Source: Halomonas sp. (GTDB lineage: Bacteria; Pseudomonadota; Gammaproteobacteria; Pseudomonadales; Halomonadaceae). Taken from it: a stretch of 64,000 nt of DNA. The notes under the pieces were generated by a model. That model searched no databases and was not told where the DNA came from. It saw nothing but the letters and a program-made list of their open reading frames with translations. The DNA is taken from the NCBI RefSeq assembly GCF_017983445.1, contig NZ_JAGOBJ010000001.1, positions 1-64,000 of the forward strand. Direction: 5' to 3'. The position numbers and the translations under genes are program-made. Position 1 is the first letter of the stretch. Each line of letters begins with the position of its first letter. Shown piece by piece: positions 1,510 through 24,926 of this stretch.

Positions 1510-1962
1510 ATGCAATTCAGGAGTTTGCTAGCCGGTTCGGCTATGTTGGCATTGTTGGCAGGCTGTGCAACCGGCGGGCCCTCAGGCCAAGACGCTGATG
1601 CAGGCGTTAGCGCGTCCCAAGAGCAGTACAAGGGAACGCTGCCTTGCCGCAACTGCGAAGGTATTGATTTAGACGTTACCATGGTGGGTCAAGAGATGAG
1701 CCCGGCTGAAGAGCGTACCTTTACACTGGACGCAACTTACCGTAATCATCCTCAAACACCGCCTCCGGAAAACTATGCCGGTAACTGGGAAGTATTAAGC
1801 GGTACTCCGTCTGACCCGGACGCAACTGTTTACGAGCTTACGCCTAATGGCGACGGTCAGGTTTACTACTTCCAGCGTATCAATGAGCGCACGTTGGAGT
1901 TAATCGATCCAGAACGTCGTCGCTTTGAAAATGGCGAAATGTTGCAGCTACAGCGTCAATAA
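1510..1962 (+). CDS. NlpE N-terminal domain-like lipoprotein
   Basis: A 150-residue lipoprotein with a lipobox LALLAGC at residues ~13-20 and a mature domain containing YKGTLPCRNCEGIDLDVTM. That CxxC motif and its context are characteristic of the NlpE N-terminal domain (copper homeostasis / Cpx envelope stress family). It should be lipid-anchored in the envelope. The start at ATG 1510 is chosen over upstream in-frame starts because AAGGAG lies at proper spacing and because a signal peptide begins there. It lacks the C-terminal OB domain of E. coli NlpE, so signalling to Cpx cannot be assumed. A terminator follows. Confidence 0.8.
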   Translation: MQFRSLLAGSAMLALLAGCATGGPSGQDADAGVSASQEQYKGTLPCRNCEGIDLDVTMVGQEMSPAEERTFTLDATYRNHPQTPPPENYAGNWEVLSGTPSDPDATVYELTPNGDGQVYYFQRINERTLELIDPERRRFENGEMLQLQRQ

Positions 1963-1979
1963 GCTAGCAGTAACATCCT

Positions 1980-2004
1980 AAGGCGGCCAATGGCCGCCTT
2001 TTGC
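1980..2004 (+). terminator. Terminator after the NlpE-like gene
   Basis: AAGGCGGCC pairs with GGCCGCCTT around AAT, followed by a short T-run. It separates the lipoprotein gene from radA. Confidence 0.8.
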
Positions 2005-2059
2005 ATTTATGGCCAGACAGCAGTGATCATGATCTAACAGTAACGGGAGTATCAGCGCG

Positions 2060-3433
2060 GTGGCTAAAGCCAAAAGTGCCTTTGTATGTACCGAGTGCGG
2101 CGCGGAGTATCGCAAGTGGCAGGGCCAGTGCTCCAGTTGTAATGAATGGAATACGCTTAGTGAAATTCGTCTAGCCAGTGCGCGCCCCGGCAGCGGCAGT
2201 GCTGGATCAGGCCGAGCTGGCTACGCGGGTGACCTTTCCAAGGATGTGGTCGACCTAAGCAATGTCGATCTGAGTGAAGTACCTCGCCTCAGCTCGACCT
2301 TCAACGAGTTCGATCGCGTATTGGGTGGCGGCTTGGTGCCTGGTTCAGCCGTGCTATTGGGGGGCAATCCAGGGGCGGGTAAGTCAACGTTATTGCTGCA
2401 AACTGCCTGTAAGCTTGCCCAGGAACGGCGCATTATCTACGTCACGGGTGAAGAGTCGTTGTCTCAGGTGGCCATGCGCGCTCACCGCTTGCAGCTGCCT
2501 ACCAGTGGCTTGAAAATGCTCGCAGAAACCAGTGTAGAAACCATTCTTGCCGTGGCTGAGCGTGAGAAGCCTGAAATACTGGTGATTGACTCTATTCAGA
2601 CCATGCACCTTGAAGATATCAGCTCGGCGCCGGGTGGAGTTGCCCAGGTGCGCGAGTCCGCCGCCGCGCTTACCCGTTTTGCCAAGCAAACCAATACGGT
2701 ACTGCTATTGGTTGGCCATGTAACCAAAGATGGCACGCTTGCTGGGCCCAAGGTGCTTGAGCACATGATTGATGCCTCGCTGTTATTGGAAGGTGGTGCG
2801 GATTCGCGGTTCAGGACGTTGCGAGGCCAGAAAAACCGCTTTGGTGCGGTCAATGAGTTAGGCGTTTTTGCAATGCTCGAACAAGGCCTCAAAGAGGTTA
2901 AAAACCCCAGCGCCATTTTTCTCTCGCGTCAGGAAGAGCAGGCCCCGGGCAGTCTGGTGATGGTGGTGTGGGAGGGTACTCGGCCTATTTTGGTGGAAGT
3001 ACAGGCTTTAGTCGATGAGTCTGCCTTGGGTAACCCACGTCGTGTTGCCGTTGGGGTGGATCAAAATCGCCTTGCCATGCTGCTGGCTGTATTGAATCGC
3101 CATGGCGGTCTGTTTACCGGCGACCAGGATGTGTTTCTCAACGTCGTCGGCGGCGTGAAGGTTCTAGAAACCAGCGCAGATCTGGCGGTGCTGCTGGCCG
3201 TGGTTTCCAGCCTGCAAAACAAGGCATTGCCCAAAGAGCTGGTGGTATTTGGCGAAGTGGGGCTTTCCGGTGAAATACGTCCCGTACCGAGCGGGCAGGA
3301 GCGCATCGCGGAAGCGGCCAAACATGGCTTTCTTCGCGCTATCGTACCGCGGGCCAATGCGCCCAAGCAGTCACCCAAGGGCATGGAAGTCATTGCGGTA
3401 GATAAGCTTAGCGACGCGCTAGAGGCGCTTTAA
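2060..3433 (+). CDS. radA: DNA repair ATPase/helicase RadA
   Basis: RadA (Sms), a RecA-like ATPase that drives branch migration in recombinational repair. The 457-residue protein shows all family parts: an N-terminal zinc finger with cysteines 10, 13, 24 and 27, a Walker A loop GGNPGAGKST near residue 97, a Walker B ILVIDSIQT, the RadA signature KNRFG, and a Lon-protease-like C-terminal domain with GEVGLSGEIRP. The start is GTG at 2060, preceded by GGGAG; the downstream zinc finger leaves no room for a later start. It is read alone, between terminators and the selD leader. Confidence 0.96.
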   Translation: MAKAKSAFVCTECGAEYRKWQGQCSSCNEWNTLSEIRLASARPGSGSAGSGRAGYAGDLSKDVVDLSNVDLSEVPRLSSTFNEFDRVLGGGLVPGSAVLLGGNPGAGKSTLLLQTACKLAQERRIIYVTGEESLSQVAMRAHRLQLPTSGLKMLAETSVETILAVAEREKPEILVIDSIQTMHLEDISSAPGGVAQVRESAAALTRFAKQTNTVLLLVGHVTKDGTLAGPKVLEHMIDASLLLEGGADSRFRTLRGQKNRFGAVNELGVFAMLEQGLKEVKNPSAIFLSRQEEQAPGSLVMVVWEGTRPILVEVQALVDESALGNPRRVAVGVDQNRLAMLLAVLNRHGGLFTGDQDVFLNVVGGVKVLETSADLAVLLAVVSSLQNKALPKELVVFGEVGLSGEIRPVPSGQERIAEAAKHGFLRAIVPRANAPKQSPKGMEVIAVDKLSDALEAL

Positions 3434-3488
3434 GTAGGCTACGCTGTAAATATTGTTACAAAAACATTAAGTGCCAAGGAGAGACGCT

Positions 3489-4526
3489 ATGAGTTCGATT
3501 CGCTTAACCCAATACAGCCACGGTGCTGGCTGTGGCTGCAAAATAGCCCCCGATGTACTGGATAGCATTCTTGCCAAGGCGGGGCCTGCGGCAGGGCACA
3601 AGCAGCTTATTGTAGGTAACCAGGGGCGCGAAGATGCCGCCGTTTACGACCTGGGTGATGGACGAGGCATGATTGCCACTACCGACTTTTTTATGCCGAT
3701 TGTCGATGACCCGTTCGATTTTGGGCGCATCGCCGCCACGAATGCTATCAGTGATATTTACGCCATGGGCGGTACGCCCGTTATGGCACTCAGCATTCTC
3801 GGCTGGCCGTTGGATAAGCTAAGCGTCGAGATTGCCGGTGATGTGATTGCCGGTGCCCAGGGCGTTTGCCGTGAACTGGGTGTGGCCTTGGCAGGCGGCC
3901 ATTCGATCGATGCGCCAGAGCCTATTTTTGGCCTCGCGGTTAATGGATTGATCGACCTCGACAAACTCAAGCTTAATAGCCGCGCCAAACCAGGGGACCT
4001 GCTGTTTTTGACCAAGCCACTAGGCGTGGGTCTGCTGACAACGGCTGAAAAGCAGGGACTGCTGGAAGCAGGGCATCACGGCTTAGCTCGGGAAACCATG
4101 CTCAAATCTAACCGTATCGGCGTCAAACTTGCCGGTGTGAAAGGCCTCAATGCCATGACGGATGTCACCGGGTTTGGTTTAGCAGGGCATTTGTCGGAAA
4201 TATGCAGTGCCAGCAACGTCATGGCTCAGGTAGATTTTCGGCGTTTGCCTCGCCTGGCTCAGGCAGAAGCCTATCGTCGTCAAGGGGCCGTTCCTGGCGG
4301 CACACGGCGTAATCGCGATGCGTTGGGTAAAAGCTTGCCGCACATGGATGAAGCTCACTGGCAGTGGCTATGCGATCCGCAGACCTCGGGCGGTCTATTG
4401 CTGAGTGTTGATCCTGCCTGGCAGGATGATATCGAGCGGATTGGCCGCGAGTTCGATCTATCGCTTCAGCCGTTCGGCGTCATGAAAGCCCGCGAGGGCG
4501 AGGCGCTGATTGAGGTCGTGGGATAG
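3489..4526 (+). CDS. selD: Selenide, water dikinase SelD
   Basis: Makes selenophosphate from selenide and ATP, the selenium donor for tRNA 2-selenouridine and, where present, selenocysteine. The 345-residue protein carries the glycine-rich loop HGAGCGCK, where the catalytic position is an ordinary cysteine (residue 15) followed by Lys18, so no in-frame UGA is needed. The metal-binding TTDFFMPIVDDP and C-terminal DPQTSGGLL motifs are intact. ATG 3489 is chosen because AAGGAG sits just upstream; a GTG at 3471 overlaps that site. The stop overlaps the start of mnmH by one base, indicating translational coupling. Confidence 0.95.
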   Translation: MSSIRLTQYSHGAGCGCKIAPDVLDSILAKAGPAAGHKQLIVGNQGREDAAVYDLGDGRGMIATTDFFMPIVDDPFDFGRIAATNAISDIYAMGGTPVMALSILGWPLDKLSVEIAGDVIAGAQGVCRELGVALAGGHSIDAPEPIFGLAVNGLIDLDKLKLNSRAKPGDLLFLTKPLGVGLLTTAEKQGLLEAGHHGLARETMLKSNRIGVKLAGVKGLNAMTDVTGFGLAGHLSEICSASNVMAQVDFRRLPRLAQAEAYRRQGAVPGGTRRNRDALGKSLPHMDEAHWQWLCDPQTSGGLLLSVDPAWQDDIERIGREFDLSLQPFGVMKAREGEALIEVVG

Positions 4527-17069: not shown

Positions 17070-17906
17070 ATGTTCCATCACTCATCTAAATTGCAATACC
17101 CAGTAAAAGTTGATAAGCCCAACCCTGAATTTGCCATGCTACTCCAACAAGCTATTGGGGGTGTTGAAGGAGAAATCCGGGTAGCGATGCAATACTTTTT
17201 TCAGGCAATGGGAGCGCGTGGTGATGATCGCATTCGCGACCTTTTGATGTCGACCGCGACAGAAGAACTTTCCCATATTGAAATGCTTGGCCATGCAGTT
17301 GCGCTTAATCTGGAAGGGGCGCCTCTCTCTTATCAGGAGGCTACCGCAAAAGATCCGGTCATGAACGCCATTCTTGGCGGTGCTAATCCTCGCCATCTGC
17401 TGTCATCAGGACTTTCTGCCATGCCGGTTAATGCTAACGGTGTGCCGTTTGATATGAGTCATATCTATGCCACCGGTAACGTAGCTGCCGATATGTTGGC
17501 GAACGTGACGGCTGAGGCAAGCGGCCGGGTATTGGCATCGCGGCTTTATAACTGGACTGATGATCACGGCATGAAAGATTTTCTTTCTTTCCTGATTGCT
17601 CGAGATACCTATCATCAGCAGCAGTGGCTGGCAGTGATCGAAGAGCTAGGTGGGCTGGGTGCAAACCTTCCGGTCCCCAACTCAACGCCTGAAGACCACG
17701 AAGCCATGCAGCACTCTTATTATTACCTTAATACGTTGTTGGATAAAGAAGCACCCGAAGGCCGCTGGGGTGAAGGCCCATCCTTTGATGGCCGTAGCCA
17801 GTTCTCTGTTCGCAACCAGCCAACACCTGAAGGGCAGGAAGCTACGTTAGGTATGGCGAAGGAAAAATCAGGTGCTCAGAAAGACCAGATTGATCCGTCT
17901 AAGTGA
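17070..17906 (+). CDS. katN: Manganese catalase
   Basis: Non-haem dimanganese catalase that splits hydrogen peroxide in the cytoplasm. The 278-residue four-helix protein keeps the metal ligands at nearly the positions known from Lactobacillus plantarum: Glu35 (GVEGEIR), Glu66 and His69 (TEELSHIE), Glu149 (VTAEASGR) and His182 (DTYHQQQW). The C-terminal tail is polar. ATG 17070 has GCAGGAG upstream. It lies between yciG-like and yciE-like genes, matching the RpoS-dependent katN locus of Salmonella, so stationary-phase or osmotic control is a reasonable inference, not shown by the sequence. Confidence 0.95.
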   Translation: MFHHSSKLQYPVKVDKPNPEFAMLLQQAIGGVEGEIRVAMQYFFQAMGARGDDRIRDLLMSTATEELSHIEMLGHAVALNLEGAPLSYQEATAKDPVMNAILGGANPRHLLSSGLSAMPVNANGVPFDMSHIYATGNVAADMLANVTAEASGRVLASRLYNWTDDHGMKDFLSFLIARDTYHQQQWLAVIEELGGLGANLPVPNSTPEDHEAMQHSYYYLNTLLDKEAPEGRWGEGPSFDGRSQFSVRNQPTPEGQEATLGMAKEKSGAQKDQIDPSK

Positions 17907-17956
17907 CAGACAAATAATCGCTATGAATTGCTCAGTTTCTTAAAGGAGAAAGCACG

Positions 17957-18460
17957 ATGGAAACCAAGTATTTAGAAAACTGGTTGCGCGATGCACATGC
18001 TATGGAGCAGCAAGCTGAGAAAATGCTGAAATCTCAAGCAGAGCGCTTGGTGGATTATCCAGAGCTTCAAGCGCGCATTGAGCAGCATCTGACTGAAACC
18101 CGCCACCAGTCTGAGCGCTTAGAACAAGCCATGGCCGGAATAAATATTGATACTTCCGCGTTAAAAGATCTGGGCGGTAAGTTGACTGCTTTTGGCCAGG
18201 CGCTGGGTGGCATGATGGCCGGCGACGAAGTCATGAAAGGCAGTATTGCCTGCTACGCCTTTGAGCATTTTGAAATCGCTAACTATAAGGCATTAATCCA
18301 GGCGTCTGAAAGTGCAGGCCAAACGGGAGTAGCCCAGGTATGTAGAGAGATCCTCAAAGAAGAAGAGGCTATGGCTGCTTGGCTTGCCGATCATATTGAA
18401 TCTACCACTACCCAGTTTTTGCATCGTGCAGATGATGACAACTTACGCGCCAAGCGGTAG
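17957..18460 (+). CDS. yciE: YciE/YciF-type ferritin-like protein (DUF892)
   Basis: A 167-residue helical protein of the DUF892 ferritin-like family. It shows the expected pattern: ENWLRDAHAMEQQAEKML at the start, HLTETRHQSERLEQ in the second helix, a glycine-rich link GGKLTAFGQALGG, and FEHFEIANYKALIQ with EEEAMAAWLADH in the later helices, which carry the predicted di-metal Glu/His ligands. Function is unproven; members accompany stress catalases. AAGGAG lies upstream of ATG 17957, 50 bases after katN. A terminator follows. Confidence 0.88.
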   Translation: METKYLENWLRDAHAMEQQAEKMLKSQAERLVDYPELQARIEQHLTETRHQSERLEQAMAGINIDTSALKDLGGKLTAFGQALGGMMAGDEVMKGSIACYAFEHFEIANYKALIQASESAGQTGVAQVCREILKEEEAMAAWLADHIESTTTQFLHRADDDNLRAKR

Positions 18461-18634: not shown

Positions 18635-20674
18635 CTATAAAAGATCCCGTGAGATAACGGATTCCCAGTTTTTTGAAAATACCCGGTATTGTCCTTCATA
18701 AGCATCCATCTCGGCATGAATGATAAATTCAGTCTCAGTGCAGGTAAGCACCGTGCGCGTGTAAACCTCAGTATGCCAATCATCGCGTTTAAACGAGCTT
18801 TCTGTCAGGGTTTCCCCGCGTGCAGAGGTAAAGTCGTTATCTATTGTCGTGTAATATTCCCGGGCGCTTCGGTGAATTTCAGTGCCTATATCATTAATGC
18901 GAAAACATCCTTGGTCATTGACTACCTCCAAGGTGGATGCCTTGGTTGCCAAATCCCGGTGCAGCAGCCAGTTATGCTGACTAGGTGCCAGGTGGGTAAC
19001 CTTTAGAGGTGGAGCCGATTGCGGTGCATCGAACACTTCTACACCGTCGTCCTGATGGTTCGCTGCGCGTACAGGCAGTTTTAATACACAGTTATTAAAA
19101 GAAATATCTACCTGAGCAGGTTTCGGGGGCAACCAGGCAAGCGGCCAATATGACGTTGAGACTGAAACCCGTAATTGATGCCCTGCCGGAAATTTCTGCG
19201 CAATACCGTTCATATCGATGGTTACACGATAAGTCCGGTGCGGCTCAAGCGGCGTTGGTTCTGCATTGCTATCGCGGTGGGTAAGGTTGAGTAAACCATA
19301 CGTTACCCGAGTAGCCTTGCCATCAGGCGCTACATCAGAAAGACGCACTGCCAGCATTGCCTGTGGCTGATTGCTTGAAACTTCCAGCTCTAATGAAGGC
19401 GTACCAAAAATATGTAACGGCTCAGTTAAAGCATCGGTACTAAAAATAAGCGAGCCGCCGTCTTCTTCGCGCTGATCACCAGGTAGGTCCGGTGTAGCTG
19501 CATAAGAGCACCACTTACCAGCCGCCAAGCCCACACTTAACGGCGATTGTAGTCCCATGGTTGTAGGCTCAGTGCTGCGTTCAGGTTCGCTAGCTGAAGA
19601 TAGAGGCGTCAATCGATAAGGCGACAATAAATAGCGTTGTTCTTGAATATTATTGGATGGCCATAAAGGCTCTGCGATCCAGTGACCAGGTCTATCGGCG
19701 TAAGAGTTATCTGGAGGAACGCTGTCTTGCTCCCAGGCGCGCAACATGGGTTCATCCATAATGCCGTTGTCTTTGCCTTTTAACCAGTAGTCCCACCAGC
19801 GAAGTGCTTCCTGAAGAAAACCAATGGCAGGCCCGGGAATACCCTGATGAGGATATTTATGGCCCCAAGGGCCAATAAGTCCTTTACGTGGAACCTGCAA
19901 ATGCTCCATTAATCTGAAAACGGTATTGGTAAAGCCATCCGCCCAGCCCCCGATAGCATACACAGGACAGCTTACGGCCTCATAGTATTCGCAAACGGAG
20001 CTTGCTGACCAATACTCGCTGCGCCGCTGATGGCGCAGCCATTTATCGATCCAAAGACCACTTTCTTCCATGCGTTCGTGCCACATATCGCGCCAGCGGT
20101 CGCCGACAATCAGCGGGTCAGGCGGTAAGGCATTGAAGGCGAACATAACGGTCGCTTCGGATAAATTATCCCCGAGCAGGCAGCCACCCATATAGTGCAT
20201 GTTGTCGGCATAAAGGTCATCGCTTGAACATAAGCTTAAGATCGCCTTGAGCGCTGGAGGCTGCTTCGCGGCAACTTGCAGGCTGTTAAAACCACCCCAT
20301 GAAATACCCATCATGCCGACGCTGCCATCGCACCAATACTGATTGGCAATCCACTCAATGGCATCTACCGCGTCCAACTGCTCCTGCTGAGTATACTCAT
20401 CGGTGAGTACGCCATCGGAGTCACCGCTGCCGCGCATATCCACCCGAACGCACACATAGCCATGGCCAGCCAGATAAGGATGATTGGTGGCATCACGACC
20501 ACGTGTGATATCGCGCTTGCGATAAGGGATATACTCCATGATGGCTGGCAGTGGAGTATCCTGCGTAGCCTCTGGCAACCAAATGCGCGCCGCTAATTGT
20601 TTGCCATCGCGCATAGGAATAAAGACGTTTTCTATCTCGCGGATGTTATAAGGAAAGTCGTTGATAACTTCCAT
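18635..20674 (-). CDS. CocE/NonD-family hydrolase (X-Pro dipeptidyl-peptidase-like)
   Basis: A 679-residue serine hydrolase of the S15/CocE group, which contains cocaine esterase, glutaryl-7-ACA acylase and X-Pro dipeptidyl-peptidases. The alpha/beta-hydrolase part carries FIPMRDGKQLAARIWLP, the nucleophile elbow GISWGG (Ser125), and the GPWGHKYPHQG segment with the likely catalytic histidine; the C-terminal jelly-roll (PPKPAQVDISFNNCVL and HQLRVSVSTSYWP) fits. No signal peptide, so cytoplasmic. ATG 20674 follows GAAGGAGG, which overlaps the stop of the ATP-grasp gene. The substrate is unknown; an ester or amide made by the upstream ligase is an obvious hypothesis. Confidence 0.88.
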   Translation of the reverse strand: MEVINDFPYNIREIENVFIPMRDGKQLAARIWLPEATQDTPLPAIMEYIPYRKRDITRGRDATNHPYLAGHGYVCVRVDMRGSGDSDGVLTDEYTQQEQLDAVDAIEWIANQYWCDGSVGMMGISWGGFNSLQVAAKQPPALKAILSLCSSDDLYADNMHYMGGCLLGDNLSEATVMFAFNALPPDPLIVGDRWRDMWHERMEESGLWIDKWLRHQRRSEYWSASSVCEYYEAVSCPVYAIGGWADGFTNTVFRLMEHLQVPRKGLIGPWGHKYPHQGIPGPAIGFLQEALRWWDYWLKGKDNGIMDEPMLRAWEQDSVPPDNSYADRPGHWIAEPLWPSNNIQEQRYLLSPYRLTPLSSASEPERSTEPTTMGLQSPLSVGLAAGKWCSYAATPDLPGDQREEDGGSLIFSTDALTEPLHIFGTPSLELEVSSNQPQAMLAVRLSDVAPDGKATRVTYGLLNLTHRDSNAEPTPLEPHRTYRVTIDMNGIAQKFPAGHQLRVSVSTSYWPLAWLPPKPAQVDISFNNCVLKLPVRAANHQDDGVEVFDAPQSAPPLKVTHLAPSQHNWLLHRDLATKASTLEVVNDQGCFRINDIGTEIHRSAREYYTTIDNDFTSARGETLTESSFKRDDWHTEVYTRTVLTCTETEFIIHAEMDAYEGQYRVFSKNWESVISRDLL

Positions 20675-20684
20675 TCTACCTCCT

Positions 20685-21977
20685 TCAAAGATCCACTTTT
20701 TCGATTTCAAAATCTAGAAAGTCTAAACAGAATTTATAGCGTTCTTCGATCTCCTCGTGGTTATTACCGGTGATATACAGCGTGCCCAATCGGTAGCAAA
20801 AACTATCCTGGTGAAGTAATTCGCTAAGCCGCTGGCCTGGGGCTACATCAAGGCATACGTCGGTATTTGGCAAGCGTTGCTGTAGCGCCTGTATGTTCTC
20901 CTGGCTGGGTACTCGCGTAACGATGCCATCTTCATGGGCGTAGGGAATAAAGCATTTTGCTGCCACAGGTGCCACGCCCTGGCGGCTTAATAGAGAAGGG
21001 CGCTGACCCAGGGCGATGTCGATCGCCACCTCATGGTTGGACATACCGTCGACCAAAACGAATATCTCACTATGCGACTGGGAAATGCGCGTATTGACTT
21101 CTATGAGCCAGAGTTTGTCCGTTGCTTCGTCCCACATGAATTCAGCATTAAAGCAGCCATTGTCGTAGCCAATATGGGTAAGAAATTTTTTAGCGGCTTC
21201 CACCATTTTATGGTGCACATGCTCGGGTAGATTGCTGGGGTATTCCAGGCGATCATAAAGGGTTAATGAGTCATCAGCTCTGGGCTGTGAAATAATTCCA
21301 TGCACATTGAATTCGCCCTGAAAAACCGTCCCCTCAGGAGCCGCCTGTACGCCTTTTATGATTTCTTCAACAATGCACGAATTACCATCCAACTCTTTGA
21401 TCTCTTCCGGGAGGTCGACATACTCAAGTGCTTCATTGAACGGGTCGCCAAGTTGGCGGATACCCTGACGAATTTCCTCAATAGCTCGATCAAATTGTGT
21501 CAGGTTTTCTACCTTGAAGCCCAAATGAGATGAAAATGCTTTTACGGGTTTTATCCAGAAAGGAAAATCAAGTGTAACCTGATCAATCGGGTTCTTTTTA
21601 AAAGGATCTATACCGCAGAAGTCAGGCACGACGTCAGGAATAACCTTCTGCTGCTCAATACGGCTCCAGAGTTTATGCTCGCAAGTTAAAACACTGGTAA
21701 TCGATGGCGAAGGAATACCATACTGTTGACAAAGTAAGGGTGCTAATACACTGGTCGGAAAATCCCACTGAGCAATAATGCCATCAACGCTGCCCGAGAA
21801 GTCATTTAACTGATCGTTTGCTTCTTTGAAAAGCTGATTAAACGATAAGCTCTCAGCCTCAACAGCGGTATTAACACTAAGCAACTCATGAATATCTAGT
21901 GCTTTAGCATCACGTAGTGTCTCCATTGCATGACGCTGTTTATCCTCTAAAGCAATAACAAAGATGTTACGTTTCAT
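20685..21977 (-). CDS. ATP-grasp ligase-like protein
   Basis: A 430-residue ATP-grasp enzyme: N-terminal pre-ATP-grasp part, then FPFWIKPVKAFSSHLGF (ATP-binding lysine region), a NSCIVEEIIKG segment that contacts the adenine, and LWLIEVNTRISQSHSEIF with the Glu and Asn that bind magnesium, and a biotin-carboxylase-like C-terminus. Such proteins join a carboxylate to an amine via an acyl phosphate. No biotin or purine pathway genes are nearby, so the product is unknown. The tandem ATGs at 21980 and 21977 follow AAGGAG; the second has the better spacing. It forms an operon with the CocE hydrolase 10 bases downstream. Confidence 0.85.
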   Translation of the reverse strand: MKRNIFVIALEDKQRHAMETLRDAKALDIHELLSVNTAVEAESLSFNQLFKEANDQLNDFSGSVDGIIAQWDFPTSVLAPLLCQQYGIPSPSITSVLTCEHKLWSRIEQQKVIPDVVPDFCGIDPFKKNPIDQVTLDFPFWIKPVKAFSSHLGFKVENLTQFDRAIEEIRQGIRQLGDPFNEALEYVDLPEEIKELDGNSCIVEEIIKGVQAAPEGTVFQGEFNVHGIISQPRADDSLTLYDRLEYPSNLPEHVHHKMVEAAKKFLTHIGYDNGCFNAEFMWDEATDKLWLIEVNTRISQSHSEIFVLVDGMSNHEVAIDIALGQRPSLLSRQGVAPVAAKCFIPYAHEDGIVTRVPSQENIQALQQRLPNTDVCLDVAPGQRLSELLHQDSFCYRLGTLYITGNNHEEIEERYKFCLDFLDFEIEKVDL

Positions 21978-21980
21978 CAT

Positions 21981-22450
21981 TCTCTCCTTGAGTTTAGAGC
22001 CGGCCATTCCTTCTGTTCAATTTGAGTGTACGATAGCTAGCCTCTAACATCCTTGATATATGTGATTTTTAAAAGTTCCCTATACATTATTAAAAATCTA
22101 AGTCTTAATGATTTTATAATTAAGCGTTATTAAATCTTTTAGAAGTAAAAGGTTTCATCTTGTTGGTAAGTGTAACGCTCATTGTCGGTGATAAAGCTTT
22201 GCTGGAAAGACTGAGGGCCGATTAAAGTGATAATTAAGAATAAATAAGTAGCAAATTTTAATAATTGTTAAATTTATATTGGAAAACAAGCAAGACATGT
22301 TCTCTTATTAGCCTGAACAGGCAAATAGTCCTTGTTTATATTTTCGTCGTTGACTATATTTTTTTCGCCCCTCGTCTCTTTTGGTTGTATTAAGGCTTTA
22401 CCTTATATCTATTGTGTATAGCTTGCGTCTAACTACAAAGGAGTGTAGAA
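21981..22450. other. AT-rich divergent intergenic region
   Basis: About 470 bases separate the ATP-grasp operon (minus) from the Crp/Fnr regulator (plus). No gene is seen. It contains an inverted repeat GCCTGaaCAGGC at 22311-22322 and many A/T tracts. No convincing CRP (TGTGA-N6-TCACA) or FNR (TTGAT-N4-ATCAA) site was found; TTGATATATGTGAT near 22052 is a poor match only. Confidence 0.5.
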
Positions 22451-23254
22451 ATGGATCAGGTAATTGTTGGAAACTATGAGCTTATGGATAAGAAAAGCTT
22501 TAGTAACTGTTTTAATAACTTCGAGGCTAAAAATTTCGATATAACACTAGAAAATGTGTTTGGTTTATATGGAGAGTTAGGTGAGGAGTCATTAAATAGT
22601 TTATACAAAATACCTAAAAAAATGGTTGAATTAAAGAGAAATCAAAAGATGTTCTCTTTATGTGATGGACGTGCCGATGTCTTTGTTGTCAAGGAAGGGT
22701 GGGCCAGCTTATGTCACTCCAATGATAAACGAGGCCAGGATATATGTAACGTGTTTATGCCAGGTGATATTATTGGTGTTAGAGAAAGTTTCTTTAAAAG
22801 CCATGATATTATCATTTTAGCACTTACTAATTGCAAGCTTGAGAGGGTGCCGGTTGAAAGTATCCATGAACTTTTTAAAACAGATATGGATATCAGAAAA
22901 GCCGTCATGTCCTACATTATGGTCAATGACAATATCACCATTGAGCGTCTGAGAAGCTGTACTCATCACCGTTCTGAGGAACGTGTTGCTCATTTCTTAC
23001 TAGAGATTTATACACGATTTTGTTTTAAAGGGTTACTGCAGACCAATATTTATTCATTCCCTGTTACCCAAGATGTTGTAGGTGAGTTATTGGGAATAAC
23101 CAGTGTTCACGTCAGTCGATGTATGACTGCTCTAGAGCAGAAGAAGTTTATCCGTAAAACACGGAGCAGTATTAAACTTCTAAAGCCTGAAGAGATGGCT
23201 AAGTCGACAGGATTTGATAGCGATTTTATTTACGGACATATTCACCTCGATTGA
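22451..23254 (+). CDS. Crp/Fnr-family transcription regulator
   Basis: A 267-residue regulator with a cyclic-nucleotide-binding-type beta roll (ADVFVVKEGWASLCHSND, then VFMPGDIIGVRESFF) and a C-terminal winged helix-turn-helix (PVTQDVVGELLGITSVHVSRCM, residues split around the recognition helix). No FNR-type N-terminal four-cysteine cluster is evident, and the cAMP phosphate-binding RxS motif is not seen, so the signal is unknown. The gene is clearly AT-richer than its neighbours, suggesting transfer. AAGGAG lies upstream of ATG 22451. It diverges from the ATP-grasp/CocE operon and precedes ectD, so either could be a target. Confidence 0.88.
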   Translation: MDQVIVGNYELMDKKSFSNCFNNFEAKNFDITLENVFGLYGELGEESLNSLYKIPKKMVELKRNQKMFSLCDGRADVFVVKEGWASLCHSNDKRGQDICNVFMPGDIIGVRESFFKSHDIIILALTNCKLERVPVESIHELFKTDMDIRKAVMSYIMVNDNITIERLRSCTHHRSEERVAHFLLEIYTRFCFKGLLQTNIYSFPVTQDVVGELLGITSVHVSRCMTALEQKKFIRKTRSSIKLLKPEEMAKSTGFDSDFIYGHIHLD

Positions 23255-23309
23255 TGTTTTCTAAGGGGCTTTATATCGGCTTGTGTTAGATAACAGTTAA
23301 TAGATAAAT

Positions 23310-23337
23310 CATTGGTTTAAATACATTGGTTTAAATA
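23310..23337. repeat. Perfect 14-bp tandem duplication
   Basis: CATTGGTTTAAATA occurs twice in direct succession (23310-23323 and 23324-23337), upstream of ectD and downstream of the Crp/Fnr-type gene. Confidence 0.9.
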
Positions 23338-23512
23338 TAAAATTCAAATGGGTTGTAAATATAGGAATTTTTTACGGACTACTACAACGCATGTGATTTA
23401 TTCAAAATGATCCATGCTTGTTTTTCTAATTAAAATGAGAAACAGGCTTGTTGGAATGCACGTTAGATTTTTTGATACATTTGCCTGACGGGTGAGGATT
23501 TTGCGTGGGCTG

Positions 23513-23540
23513 TATTTATATAGCTCTATTTATATAGCTC
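23513..23540. repeat. Second perfect 14-bp tandem duplication
   Basis: TATTTATATAGCTC occurs twice in direct succession (23513-23526 and 23527-23540). It has the same unit length as the duplication 175 bases upstream but an unrelated sequence. Confidence 0.9.
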
Positions 23541-23942
23541 TTGCTGTTTTGGCTAGCACTATTCAATTCAGCTCATTTCAGATTTTGCATCAAAAAAAGT
23601 TAACCTATGTTTATTTATGATGTCTGGAGGTAGATGCGCTAAAAAGCATAGTTTCTGATGCAACAGAATGTTCTAAAAAATCGAACCAGCATCGATATAT
23701 GTTTATTACTTAAATCTCAAACATTGCCCGGATACTACGAGTAGCTCGACGTAAATGCTTGATGTGGGCATTAAATAAAGCGCGCCTCGTTTAAGGTTGC
23801 CTTTCTGCTGAAAAATGCCTAAAAATGGATCTCATAACTCACGTTATAAAAATCGGATAAAAGGTTGCAGTCATTGTTAGGTTGGCTACCTTGTTATGGC
23901 ATGACATTGATCTGAAATTTAATCATACAAGGAGTGGATTAG

Positions 23943-24926
23943 ATGACAGTCAGCAATCTATCTTTCCATAATGTAATGGCACAAAAGCAGTATAGTGAGT
24001 TAGCGGATGTGCCGTCTTCGCATCACGTAAAAGTTGAGGATGCTTATCTTTCGAGACTGGCCGAACCGCCACAGGAACTCTGGCAGCCTCGTCAGGATGC
24101 AGTAATAAAAGGTAAGCACTTATCCGGCCCGTTAAGTAAGGCGCAGCTGGAAGAATTTGAGCGTAAGGGATTTCTTTTTATCCCTAACCTTATTAGTGGT
24201 GATGAGCTTGATGAGCTGCGTGATGAGATGCAGACATTGATGAGCACTGATGAGTATCGCCATCAGGATTTCAGTATTACCGAACCTGAAAGTAACGAAA
24301 TTCGCTCGCTGTTTGCGGTGCATAAGTTATCAAAGCGTCTGGGCGCTTTGGCAAACGATGAACGTGTGGCCGGTGCGGCACGGCAGATCATCGGTGATGA
24401 TCCGTATGTGCACCAGTCGCGCATAAACTACAAGCCTGGGCTTGCCGGTAAGGGGTTCAATTGGCATTCAGATTTTGAAACCTGGCACGCTGAAGACGGT
24501 ATGCCGCGCATGCATGCCGTGAGCGCCTCGTTAATTCTGACTGACAATCATGAATTCAATGGTCCTCTGATGCTGATACCCGGCTCGCACAACAAGTTTG
24601 TGCCGTGTCTGGGGGAGACGCCTGAGGATAACCATAAGAGCTCGTTAAAAGCGCAGGAGGTGGGTGTACCAAGCCCTGAGGCGTTGACTGAGCTGGTGGC
24701 CGAGCACGGCATTGAAGCGCCCAAGGGAAAGGCTGGCGGACTCTTGCTGTTTGATTGCAATACTCTGCACGCCTCGAACGCCAACTTGTCGCCAGACCCG
24801 CGCAGCAACGTATTCTTCGTATTTAACCGTCCGGATAATCGTTGTCGTGAGCCGTATGCAGCGTCCAAGCATCGCCCGGACTTTCTTGCTCATGCGCCTG
24901 ACAACAGTCAGCCATTAACTAAGTGA
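23943..24926 (+). CDS. ectD: Ectoine hydroxylase EctD
   Basis: An iron(II)/2-oxoglutarate dioxygenase that converts the compatible solute ectoine to 5-hydroxyectoine, giving osmotic and heat protection. The 327-residue protein has the family signature FNWHSDFETWHAEDGMPRM with iron ligands His175 and Asp177, the third ligand His276 in CNTLHASNAN, and SLFAVHKLS and PGSHNKF segments. ATG 23943 has AAGGAG upstream. ectABC is not in this window; a stand-alone ectD is known in Halomonas. It follows the Crp/Fnr-type gene on the same strand, but 690 bases away. Confidence 0.96.
   Translation: MTVSNLSFHNVMAQKQYSELADVPSSHHVKVEDAYLSRLAEPPQELWQPRQDAVIKGKHLSGPLSKAQLEEFERKGFLFIPNLISGDELDELRDEMQTLMSTDEYRHQDFSITEPESNEIRSLFAVHKLSKRLGALANDERVAGAARQIIGDDPYVHQSRINYKPGLAGKGFNWHSDFETWHAEDGMPRMHAVSASLILTDNHEFNGPLMLIPGSHNKFVPCLGETPEDNHKSSLKAQEVGVPSPEALTELVAEHGIEAPKGKAGGLLLFDCNTLHASNANLSPDPRSNVFFVFNRPDNRCREPYAASKHRPDFLAHAPDNSQPLTK

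Follow-up and report, generated by a model that had tools for sequence, protein, structure and literature searches.

Several described systems come close to the one considered here. In the operon for the osmolyte N-acetylglutaminylglutamine amide (NAGGN), an amide solute is served by a ligase together with a hydrolase of the peptidase type. In fold, our ligase resembles the L-amino acid ligases (BL00235, BacD/YwfE, RizA), one of which, BacD, acts in an antibiotic pathway. Cocaine esterase is the nearest counterpart of our hydrolase, and EctC – the ectoine synthase – that of a domain fused to some relatives of the ligase. We analyzed a 64,000-nucleotide (nt) stretch of a Halomonas sp. genome (positions 1 to 64,000 of contig NZ_JAGOBJ010000001.1; hereafter the window) in which a gene for an ATP-grasp ligase is directly followed, on the same strand, by a gene for a CocE-type hydrolase. 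No description of this ligase–CocE pair was found in open-licence papers. We found that the ligase and CocE are one transmitted unit, and what is new in this analysis is the link of the pair to compatible solutes. The pair and the NAGGN operon are alike in outline, which is a resemblance and not an assignment to that system; they differ in that no amidotransferase or acetyltransferase–ligase fusion is conserved beside the pair and in that the hydrolase is of another class. Among the NCBIfam matches of the ligase (E up to 0.01) there was no NAGGN model, though the presence of such a model in the library is unconfirmed.

The two genes of the pair are:

20685–21980, minus strand: ATP-grasp ligase (open reading frame (ORF) 20685–22007, open to 22007)
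18635–20674, minus strand: CocE/NonD (S15 family) serine hydrolase, 679 amino acids (TIGR00976, PF02129, PF08530)

The ligase and CocE genes are co-conserved

In the window, 10 nt separate the ligase stop codon from the hydrolase gene, whose ATG at 20674 is preceded by AAGGAGGT. The source genome (3.9 Mb, 16 contigs) holds a single ligase copy; among named organisms, Halomonas colorata and Vreelandella species are closest to it, with ligases up to 94% identical. An earlier note, made from the letters of the window, had described a ligase, a hydrolase after 10 nt and a diverging regulator, and all three genes lie where it put them. It had also staked its proposal on the pair being co-conserved in other genomes, which we found to be so across several phyla, with the trees of both proteins in agreement.

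To count the pairing we used the best 80 of 89 ligase loci confirmed in a scan of our genome collection, ranked by likeness to the query and hence an uneven sample (L numbers below label relatives' loci and G numbers label genomes). CocE lay directly downstream, on the same strand and within 300 nt, in 64 of the 80, and in another arrangement in six. Carriers, often adapted to salt, came from several phyla and included, among these 80, Halomonadaceae, Marinobacter, Thioalkalivibrio, Kangiella, Nitrosomonas, Microbulbifer, Desulfuromonadales, Balneolaceae, Arthrobacter, Brevibacterium and Mycolicibacter.

In the window's own family, the ligase was present in 106 of 201 genomes and CocE (E up to 1e-150) in 143. 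CocE was directly downstream at no fewer than 126 of the 139 ligase places (103 of 106 genomes), with the matched ranges a median of 52.5 nt apart; since the list of CocE matches is partial, this count is a minimum. We examined six of the 13 places without a listed downstream CocE. CocE was matched in two frames at L114, was adjacent but absent from the list at L116, and was partially matched at L117, while L118 had no CocE and carried a gene that matches the PLD-family gene of L021 in length and place. At L113 the seeming partner, a 346-amino-acid gene between ligase and CocE, proved to be an IS110-type transposase. The sixth place, L115 (ligase and following gene, 1573–4254), had an aspartokinase-like gene (TIGR00657, 252.3 bits, cut-off 208.7) after the ligase instead of CocE, and the next ORF there reads like a putative integrase.

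In a draw across the class, the ligase was present in 18 of 369 genomes, at 23 places (all 23 loci were examined). CocE lay in the locus in 13 of these 18 carriers, one of which, G324, was without it at its second ligase place. A draw across the phylum had the ligase in 7 of 299 genomes, and CocE was directly downstream in all four not already covered. Seven plasmid records held ligase relatives, all below 60% identity; at the three plasmid loci examined (Paraburkholderia, sphingomonads) no annotated CocE adjoined the ligase, the plasmid gene table being incomplete and the contexts uninformative.

We also observed two variations on the pair. Tandem ligase genes stand ahead of one CocE at L043:6528–9305, L070:225–2836 and L121:7215–9826, perhaps reflecting two joining steps. 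In second ligase copies of some Halomonadaceae, a PLD-family gene replaces CocE (L020:1199–2137, L021:9314–10516, L072:717–1982; Pfam on L020).

Ligase and CocE have evolved together

Distances among ligases and among their CocE partners were correlated at r=0.92 over 49 adjacent pairs, to which host relatedness adds; the maximum of 2000 permutations was 0.23. In both trees the window's Halomonadaceae group adjoins an Actinobacteria group, apart from the other Halomonadaceae copies. Because this placement runs against host relatedness in both trees alike, it suggests that the two genes were transferred together. Of the two proteins, CocE shows the stronger conservation, its mean identity being 63% over the 49 pairs vs 48% for the ligase. 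A 58-row clade of the CocE tree (support 94) comprises the ligase-linked CocE proteins, bar L081 and one of the two L057 copies, and also takes in one member of each of two head-to-head CocE pairs (L107, L108).

The ligase resembles L-amino acid ligases

The ligase start is likely the ATGATG at 21980/21977, which has AAGGAG ahead of it, since residues 1–9 of the longer ORF have a predicted local distance difference test (pLDDT) score below 50 and the aligned protein begins here in many relatives. The ligase belongs to the ATP-grasp superfamily by its score for ATP-grasp_4 (PF13535; 41.9 bits, cut-off 27) and by its invariant residues: K153, E214, E289, E303, N305 and R307 are unchanged among 66 aligned ligase sequences, and we take these to be the ATP/Mg residues of the ATP-grasp fold.

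A structure model of the ligase (pLDDT 92.6) was searched with Foldseek, in which L-amino acid (dipeptide) ligases took ranks 1, 3, 4, 5, 9 and 10 (TM-score by query length 0.63–0.71). The family profile matches the L-amino acid ligase BL00235 (3vot) over positions 83–322; its matches to urea carboxylase and carbamoyl-phosphate synthase begin only near 246–250. The window ligase nonetheless differs from L-amino acid ligases in three respects: its identity to those of the top folds is about 15%, its partner is a CocE hydrolase, and the segment after its metal-binding Asn, TRISQSH, is nearer to that of carbamoyl-phosphate synthase and urea carboxylase. On the structural comparison we favour an amide-forming role.

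Curated cut-offs disfavour a biotin, carbamoyl-phosphate or cell-wall role. The listed equivalog and subfamily models were all far under cut-off (for example, urea carboxylase at 28 vs 1303.85), and Dala_Dala_lig_C scored 18.7, below its cut-off of 24. The domain model CPSase_L_D2 does pass (35.4 vs 19.8).

The hydrolase is a CocE/NonD enzyme with conserved catalytic residues

The hydrolase is a member of the CocE/NonD family by family score, catalytic triad and oxyanion Tyr. It scored 259.1 bits for TIGR00976 (cut-off 66.3), 230.4 for Peptidase_S15 (PF02129; cut-off 23) and 173.8 for PepX_C (PF08530; cut-off 22.5). Four residues, S125, D246, H272 and Y51, do not vary among 56 aligned hydrolases and align with cocaine esterase residues; we presume the first three to be the Ser–Asp–His triad and Y51 the oxyanion Tyr. 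The nearest folds to its model (pLDDT 87.6) were, in order, cocaine esterase, a thaumarchaeal aminopeptidase, a lipase (PaL), an X-prolyl peptidase and alpha-amino acid ester hydrolases.

Models of narrower function did not fit. Those for X-Pro dipeptidyl-peptidase were below cut-off (NF003780 at 101.1 vs 642, NF003782 at 35.6 vs 711). In alpha-amino acid ester hydrolases an Asp three residues past the nucleophile binds the amine; our hydrolase has Gly128 at that position, invariant in the 56 aligned sequences. From cocaine esterase itself, its best fold match, the hydrolase differs in sequence (24% identity to 1ju3), in having a ligase as operon partner and in an all-beta C-terminal stretch. 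This stretch of some 140 residues (window 18638–19057), mainly beta strands in the model, lies past the last Pfam domain.

Genomic contexts link the pair to compatible solutes

The earlier note held that no relevant pathway gene was near the pair. This overlooked a gene for ectoine hydroxylase beyond the regulator:

23943–24926, plus strand: ectD, ectoine hydroxylase (TIGR02408, 361.6 bits, cut-off 336.5); context, outside the unit

The gene ectD is likewise next after the regulator in L002–L005, L014 and L023. Elsewhere the source genome carries an ectoine synthase gene, and two genes upstream of it read, by position, as putative ectB and ectA.

A second context is the L128 operon (G252). On one strand it encodes methyltransferases, a ProV-type ATPase, a permease and OpuAC, then the ligase (after a 2 nt gap) and then CocE. 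The glycine/sarcosine methyltransferase scored 505.1 bits for NF051855 (cut-off 350), the ATPase 376.1 (cut-off 326.6) and the OpuAC binding protein 220.3 in Pfam (cut-off 21.2); the sarcosine/dimethylglycine methyltransferase was under its cut-off of 550 for NF041675 (413.2) and the permease just under 363 (359.7). Solved structural relatives were found for both methyltransferases.

We then compared carriers and non-carriers of the ligase in the class-wide draw. Either ectC or a glycine/sarcosine methyltransferase was over cut-off in 14 of 18 carriers vs 58 of 351 non-carriers (Fisher p=6e-8, p-values here being too small because the genomes are related), and 11 of 13 carrier families were positive for a solute marker over cut-off. 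Counting methyltransferase matches at E up to 1e-40 gave 16/18 vs 59/351, and ectC alone 9/18 vs 44/351.

CocE relatives without this ligase also have transport neighbours. CocE matches occurred in 453 plasmid records, and ABC importer genes adjoined CocE in all eight of the plasmid loci examined; the importer at L088 is of betaine type, and at L089 an MttB-family methyltransferase adjoins as well. In the window's family, two CocE relatives (L111, L112) directly follow a BCCT carrier. Eight genomes were listed with a head-to-head CocE pair; in both of the loci fetched (L107:4341–9546, L108:3435–8750) such a pair is near a Ddl-like ATP-grasp gene. As CocE stands beside this ligase and beside a Ddl-like ATP-grasp, the CocE family occurs with two kinds of ATP-grasp. 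A D-Ala-D-Ala-ligase-like second ATP-grasp was also observed near CocE genes in L053–L057, L060 and L123.

The gene contexts thus support, from several sides, a predicted osmolyte link for the pair.

Some relatives fuse an ectoine-synthase domain to the ligase

In seven loci an ectoine-synthase domain precedes the ligase, at its N terminus (L042:3670–5367; L053–L056 and L060:7614–9284; L119:9053–10807). Whole-protein scans of four of these fusions had both domains in one frame. The fused domain PF06339 was full-length and above cut-off in these four (132.9–159.1 bits), and that of L053 scored 143.9 for NF009806 (cut-off 128). The L053–L056 and L060 cluster consists of a Ddl-like ATP-grasp, ligase, CocE, M20 peptidase, CocE and fused ligase. 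At L119 alone, an IucA/IucC-type gene stands beside the fusion. A study of EctC from P. lautus names Glu-57, Tyr-84 and His-92 as iron ligands (PMC6344544). Like EctC, the six fused domains that were aligned keep the equivalents of Glu-57 and Tyr-84.

Proposed function and alternatives

We put at just short of even the chance that the pair is a self-contained osmostress cassette, which makes and breaks an amide-linked protective solute – that is, that it builds and recycles it. Judging by its fold and conserved active site, the ATP-grasp enzyme would use ATP to activate an amino acid or a zwitterionic solute at its carboxylate and would couple it to an amine; the small conjugate so formed, joined by an amide, would protect the cell. 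Once this conjugate is unneeded, the CocE-type hydrolase would cut the amide and return the parts, as gene coupling, co-evolution and the conserved triad suggest. Both enzymes would then act on one molecule, a solute, in opposite directions. The earlier note had proposed a pair around one small conjugate, perhaps an osmolyte derivative: co-conservation, agreeing trees and compatible-solute contexts speak for this, and that the hydrolase undoes the ligase's product is a step we infer.

A bolder form of this reading, which we consider improbable, is that the cassette makes undescribed compatible solutes: conjugates in which a zwitterion is bound through an amide and also, in the lineage with the fusion, cyclic analogues of ectoine. 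In that lineage the ligase would acylate a diamino acid, for example diaminobutyrate, on its side-chain amine with a group other than acetyl, the ectoine-synthase domain would close the ring, and CocE would break the amide. If so, ectoine would be one member of a wider family of ligase-built solutes.

Several observations weigh against the build-and-recycle reading. CocE was not in view in 10 of the 80 loci, two of which (L024, L077) are cut by a contig end, nor in the locus of 5 of the 18 carriers in the class draw. Mycolicibacter and Arthrobacter, both among the carriers, are not classic halophiles. In the Foldseek search, biotin carboxylases (rank 6 onward) and other ATP-grasp enzymes came close behind the L-amino acid ligases, as did 4dim (rank 2). 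The pair lies inside an operon for glycine-betaine synthesis and uptake in a single case, L128, and 4 of the 18 carriers in the class draw had neither solute marker over cut-off. Since genes for ectoine and betaine are also markers of salty habitats, the association may reflect ecology alone. Six fused ligases form one clade (support 99), for which a single fusion event is the simplest reading, so the fusion would have arisen once. Unlike EctC, the six fused domains in the alignment, all from relatives and none from the window, have Tyr, Val or Ile in place of His-92 and thereby lack one of the three iron ligands expected of an ectoine synthase; they are moreover joined to a ligase.

Of the alternatives, the one that survives best – unlikely, in our judgement, though the least so – has the enzymes acting in series, with CocE releasing a carboxylate or an amine from an ester or amide, whether imported or cellular, and the ligase building a different product from it. 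Among CocE relatives without this ligase, the ABC importers in the eight plasmid loci and the BCCT carrier at L111 and L112 fit this arrangement; however, most loci showed no importer next to the pair, which usually stands alone.

We consider it doubtful that the pair serves general stress or damage control, modifying a metabolite and cleaning it up in stationary phase or under oxidative stress with no osmotic role. Its Halomonadaceae neighbours include Mn-catalase, DUF892, a KGG-repeat protein, LigD and a PLD-family protein, as such a role would lead one to expect, but in our clustering neighbours of this type were confined to Halomonadaceae loci, whereas the solute links extend to other lineages.

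A minimal secondary-metabolite pathway, in which the ligase makes a dipeptide-like compound that the hydrolase matures or detoxifies, seems slightly less probable again. It would suit the resemblance of the ligase to dipeptide ligases including BacD and the IucA/IucC-type gene beside the L119 fusion; that neighbour, however, occurs in one locus only, and the pair has no conserved neighbour that is an exporter or tailoring gene.

Chance adjacency of two genes with unrelated functions is hardly conceivable, being refuted by the downstream counts (64/80 and 126/139), co-conservation across phyla, the distance correlation and the matching trees.

If the build-and-recycle reading holds, it would add such a solute system to salt adaptation, one whose ligase is present in 106 of the 201 sampled family genomes and in several phyla. 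According to a 2005 review, the enzymes behind some known solutes, in particular a neutral dipeptide and a derivatised amino acid, were still unexplored at the time (PMC1224877). The cassette supplies concrete enzymes to try for such solutes, and since Halomonas strains are in industrial use, to go by paper titles, a new protectant pathway could be useful.

A local regulator and stress-type neighbours

The remaining features of the locus are:

22451–23254, plus strand: Crp/Fnr-type regulator (PF13545 and PF00027 above cut-off); locally associated
21981–22450, no strand: AT-rich region between the pair and the divergent regulator, with conserved stretches in close relatives
22257–22272, no strand: candidate operator, near-palindrome TTTAATAATTGTTAAA; single genome site at up to one mismatch
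17070–18460, plus strand: Mn-catalase and DUF892 genes (PF05067, PF05974); stress-type context, outside the unit

The regulator matches HTH_Crp_2 (PF13545; 46.4, cut-off 27) and cNMP_binding (PF00027; 31.7, cut-off 27.5), and Fnr oxygen sensor models were below cut-off on it (NF008365 at 49.4 vs 228, the FnrL model at 32 vs 300). Clustering placed a related Crp/Fnr gene in 13 of 81 loci, the window's own copy included, all 13 of them in Halomonadaceae, so we rejected the regulator as a conserved part of the unit; the earlier note's suggestion that it senses the conjugate finds no support. In L013, L020 and L072 the Crp/Fnr gene is beside Mn-catalase or near a PLD-family gene and is not divergent from the pair.

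Control of the pair in the window probably falls to the divergent regulator, acting through the AT-rich region, whose GC content is 32.6% (regulator 36.7%, window 54.0%). The 16 bp near-palindrome in this region is exact in L002, L003, L004 and L023 and missing from L005 in the alignment of relatives; as the pattern was drawn from that alignment, it is a post hoc candidate. Promoter and terminator scans gave no excess over shuffles (7 vs a mean of 9.0, and 4 vs 4.6). Between the regulator and ectD, at 23255–23942, lies a 688-base AT-rich gap (34.3% GC) without a listed ORF of at least 80 amino acids.

Several Halomonadaceae loci again have Mn-catalase and DUF892 next to the pair, and scans of single members of related loci identified a KGG-repeat protein in L006, LigD in L009 and a PLD-family protein in L020. 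These neighbours suggest a stress regulon. By clustering, LigD-type DNA ligase genes stand beside the pair in L008, L009 (5221–7800; Pfam on this locus), L010–L012, L016 and L024.

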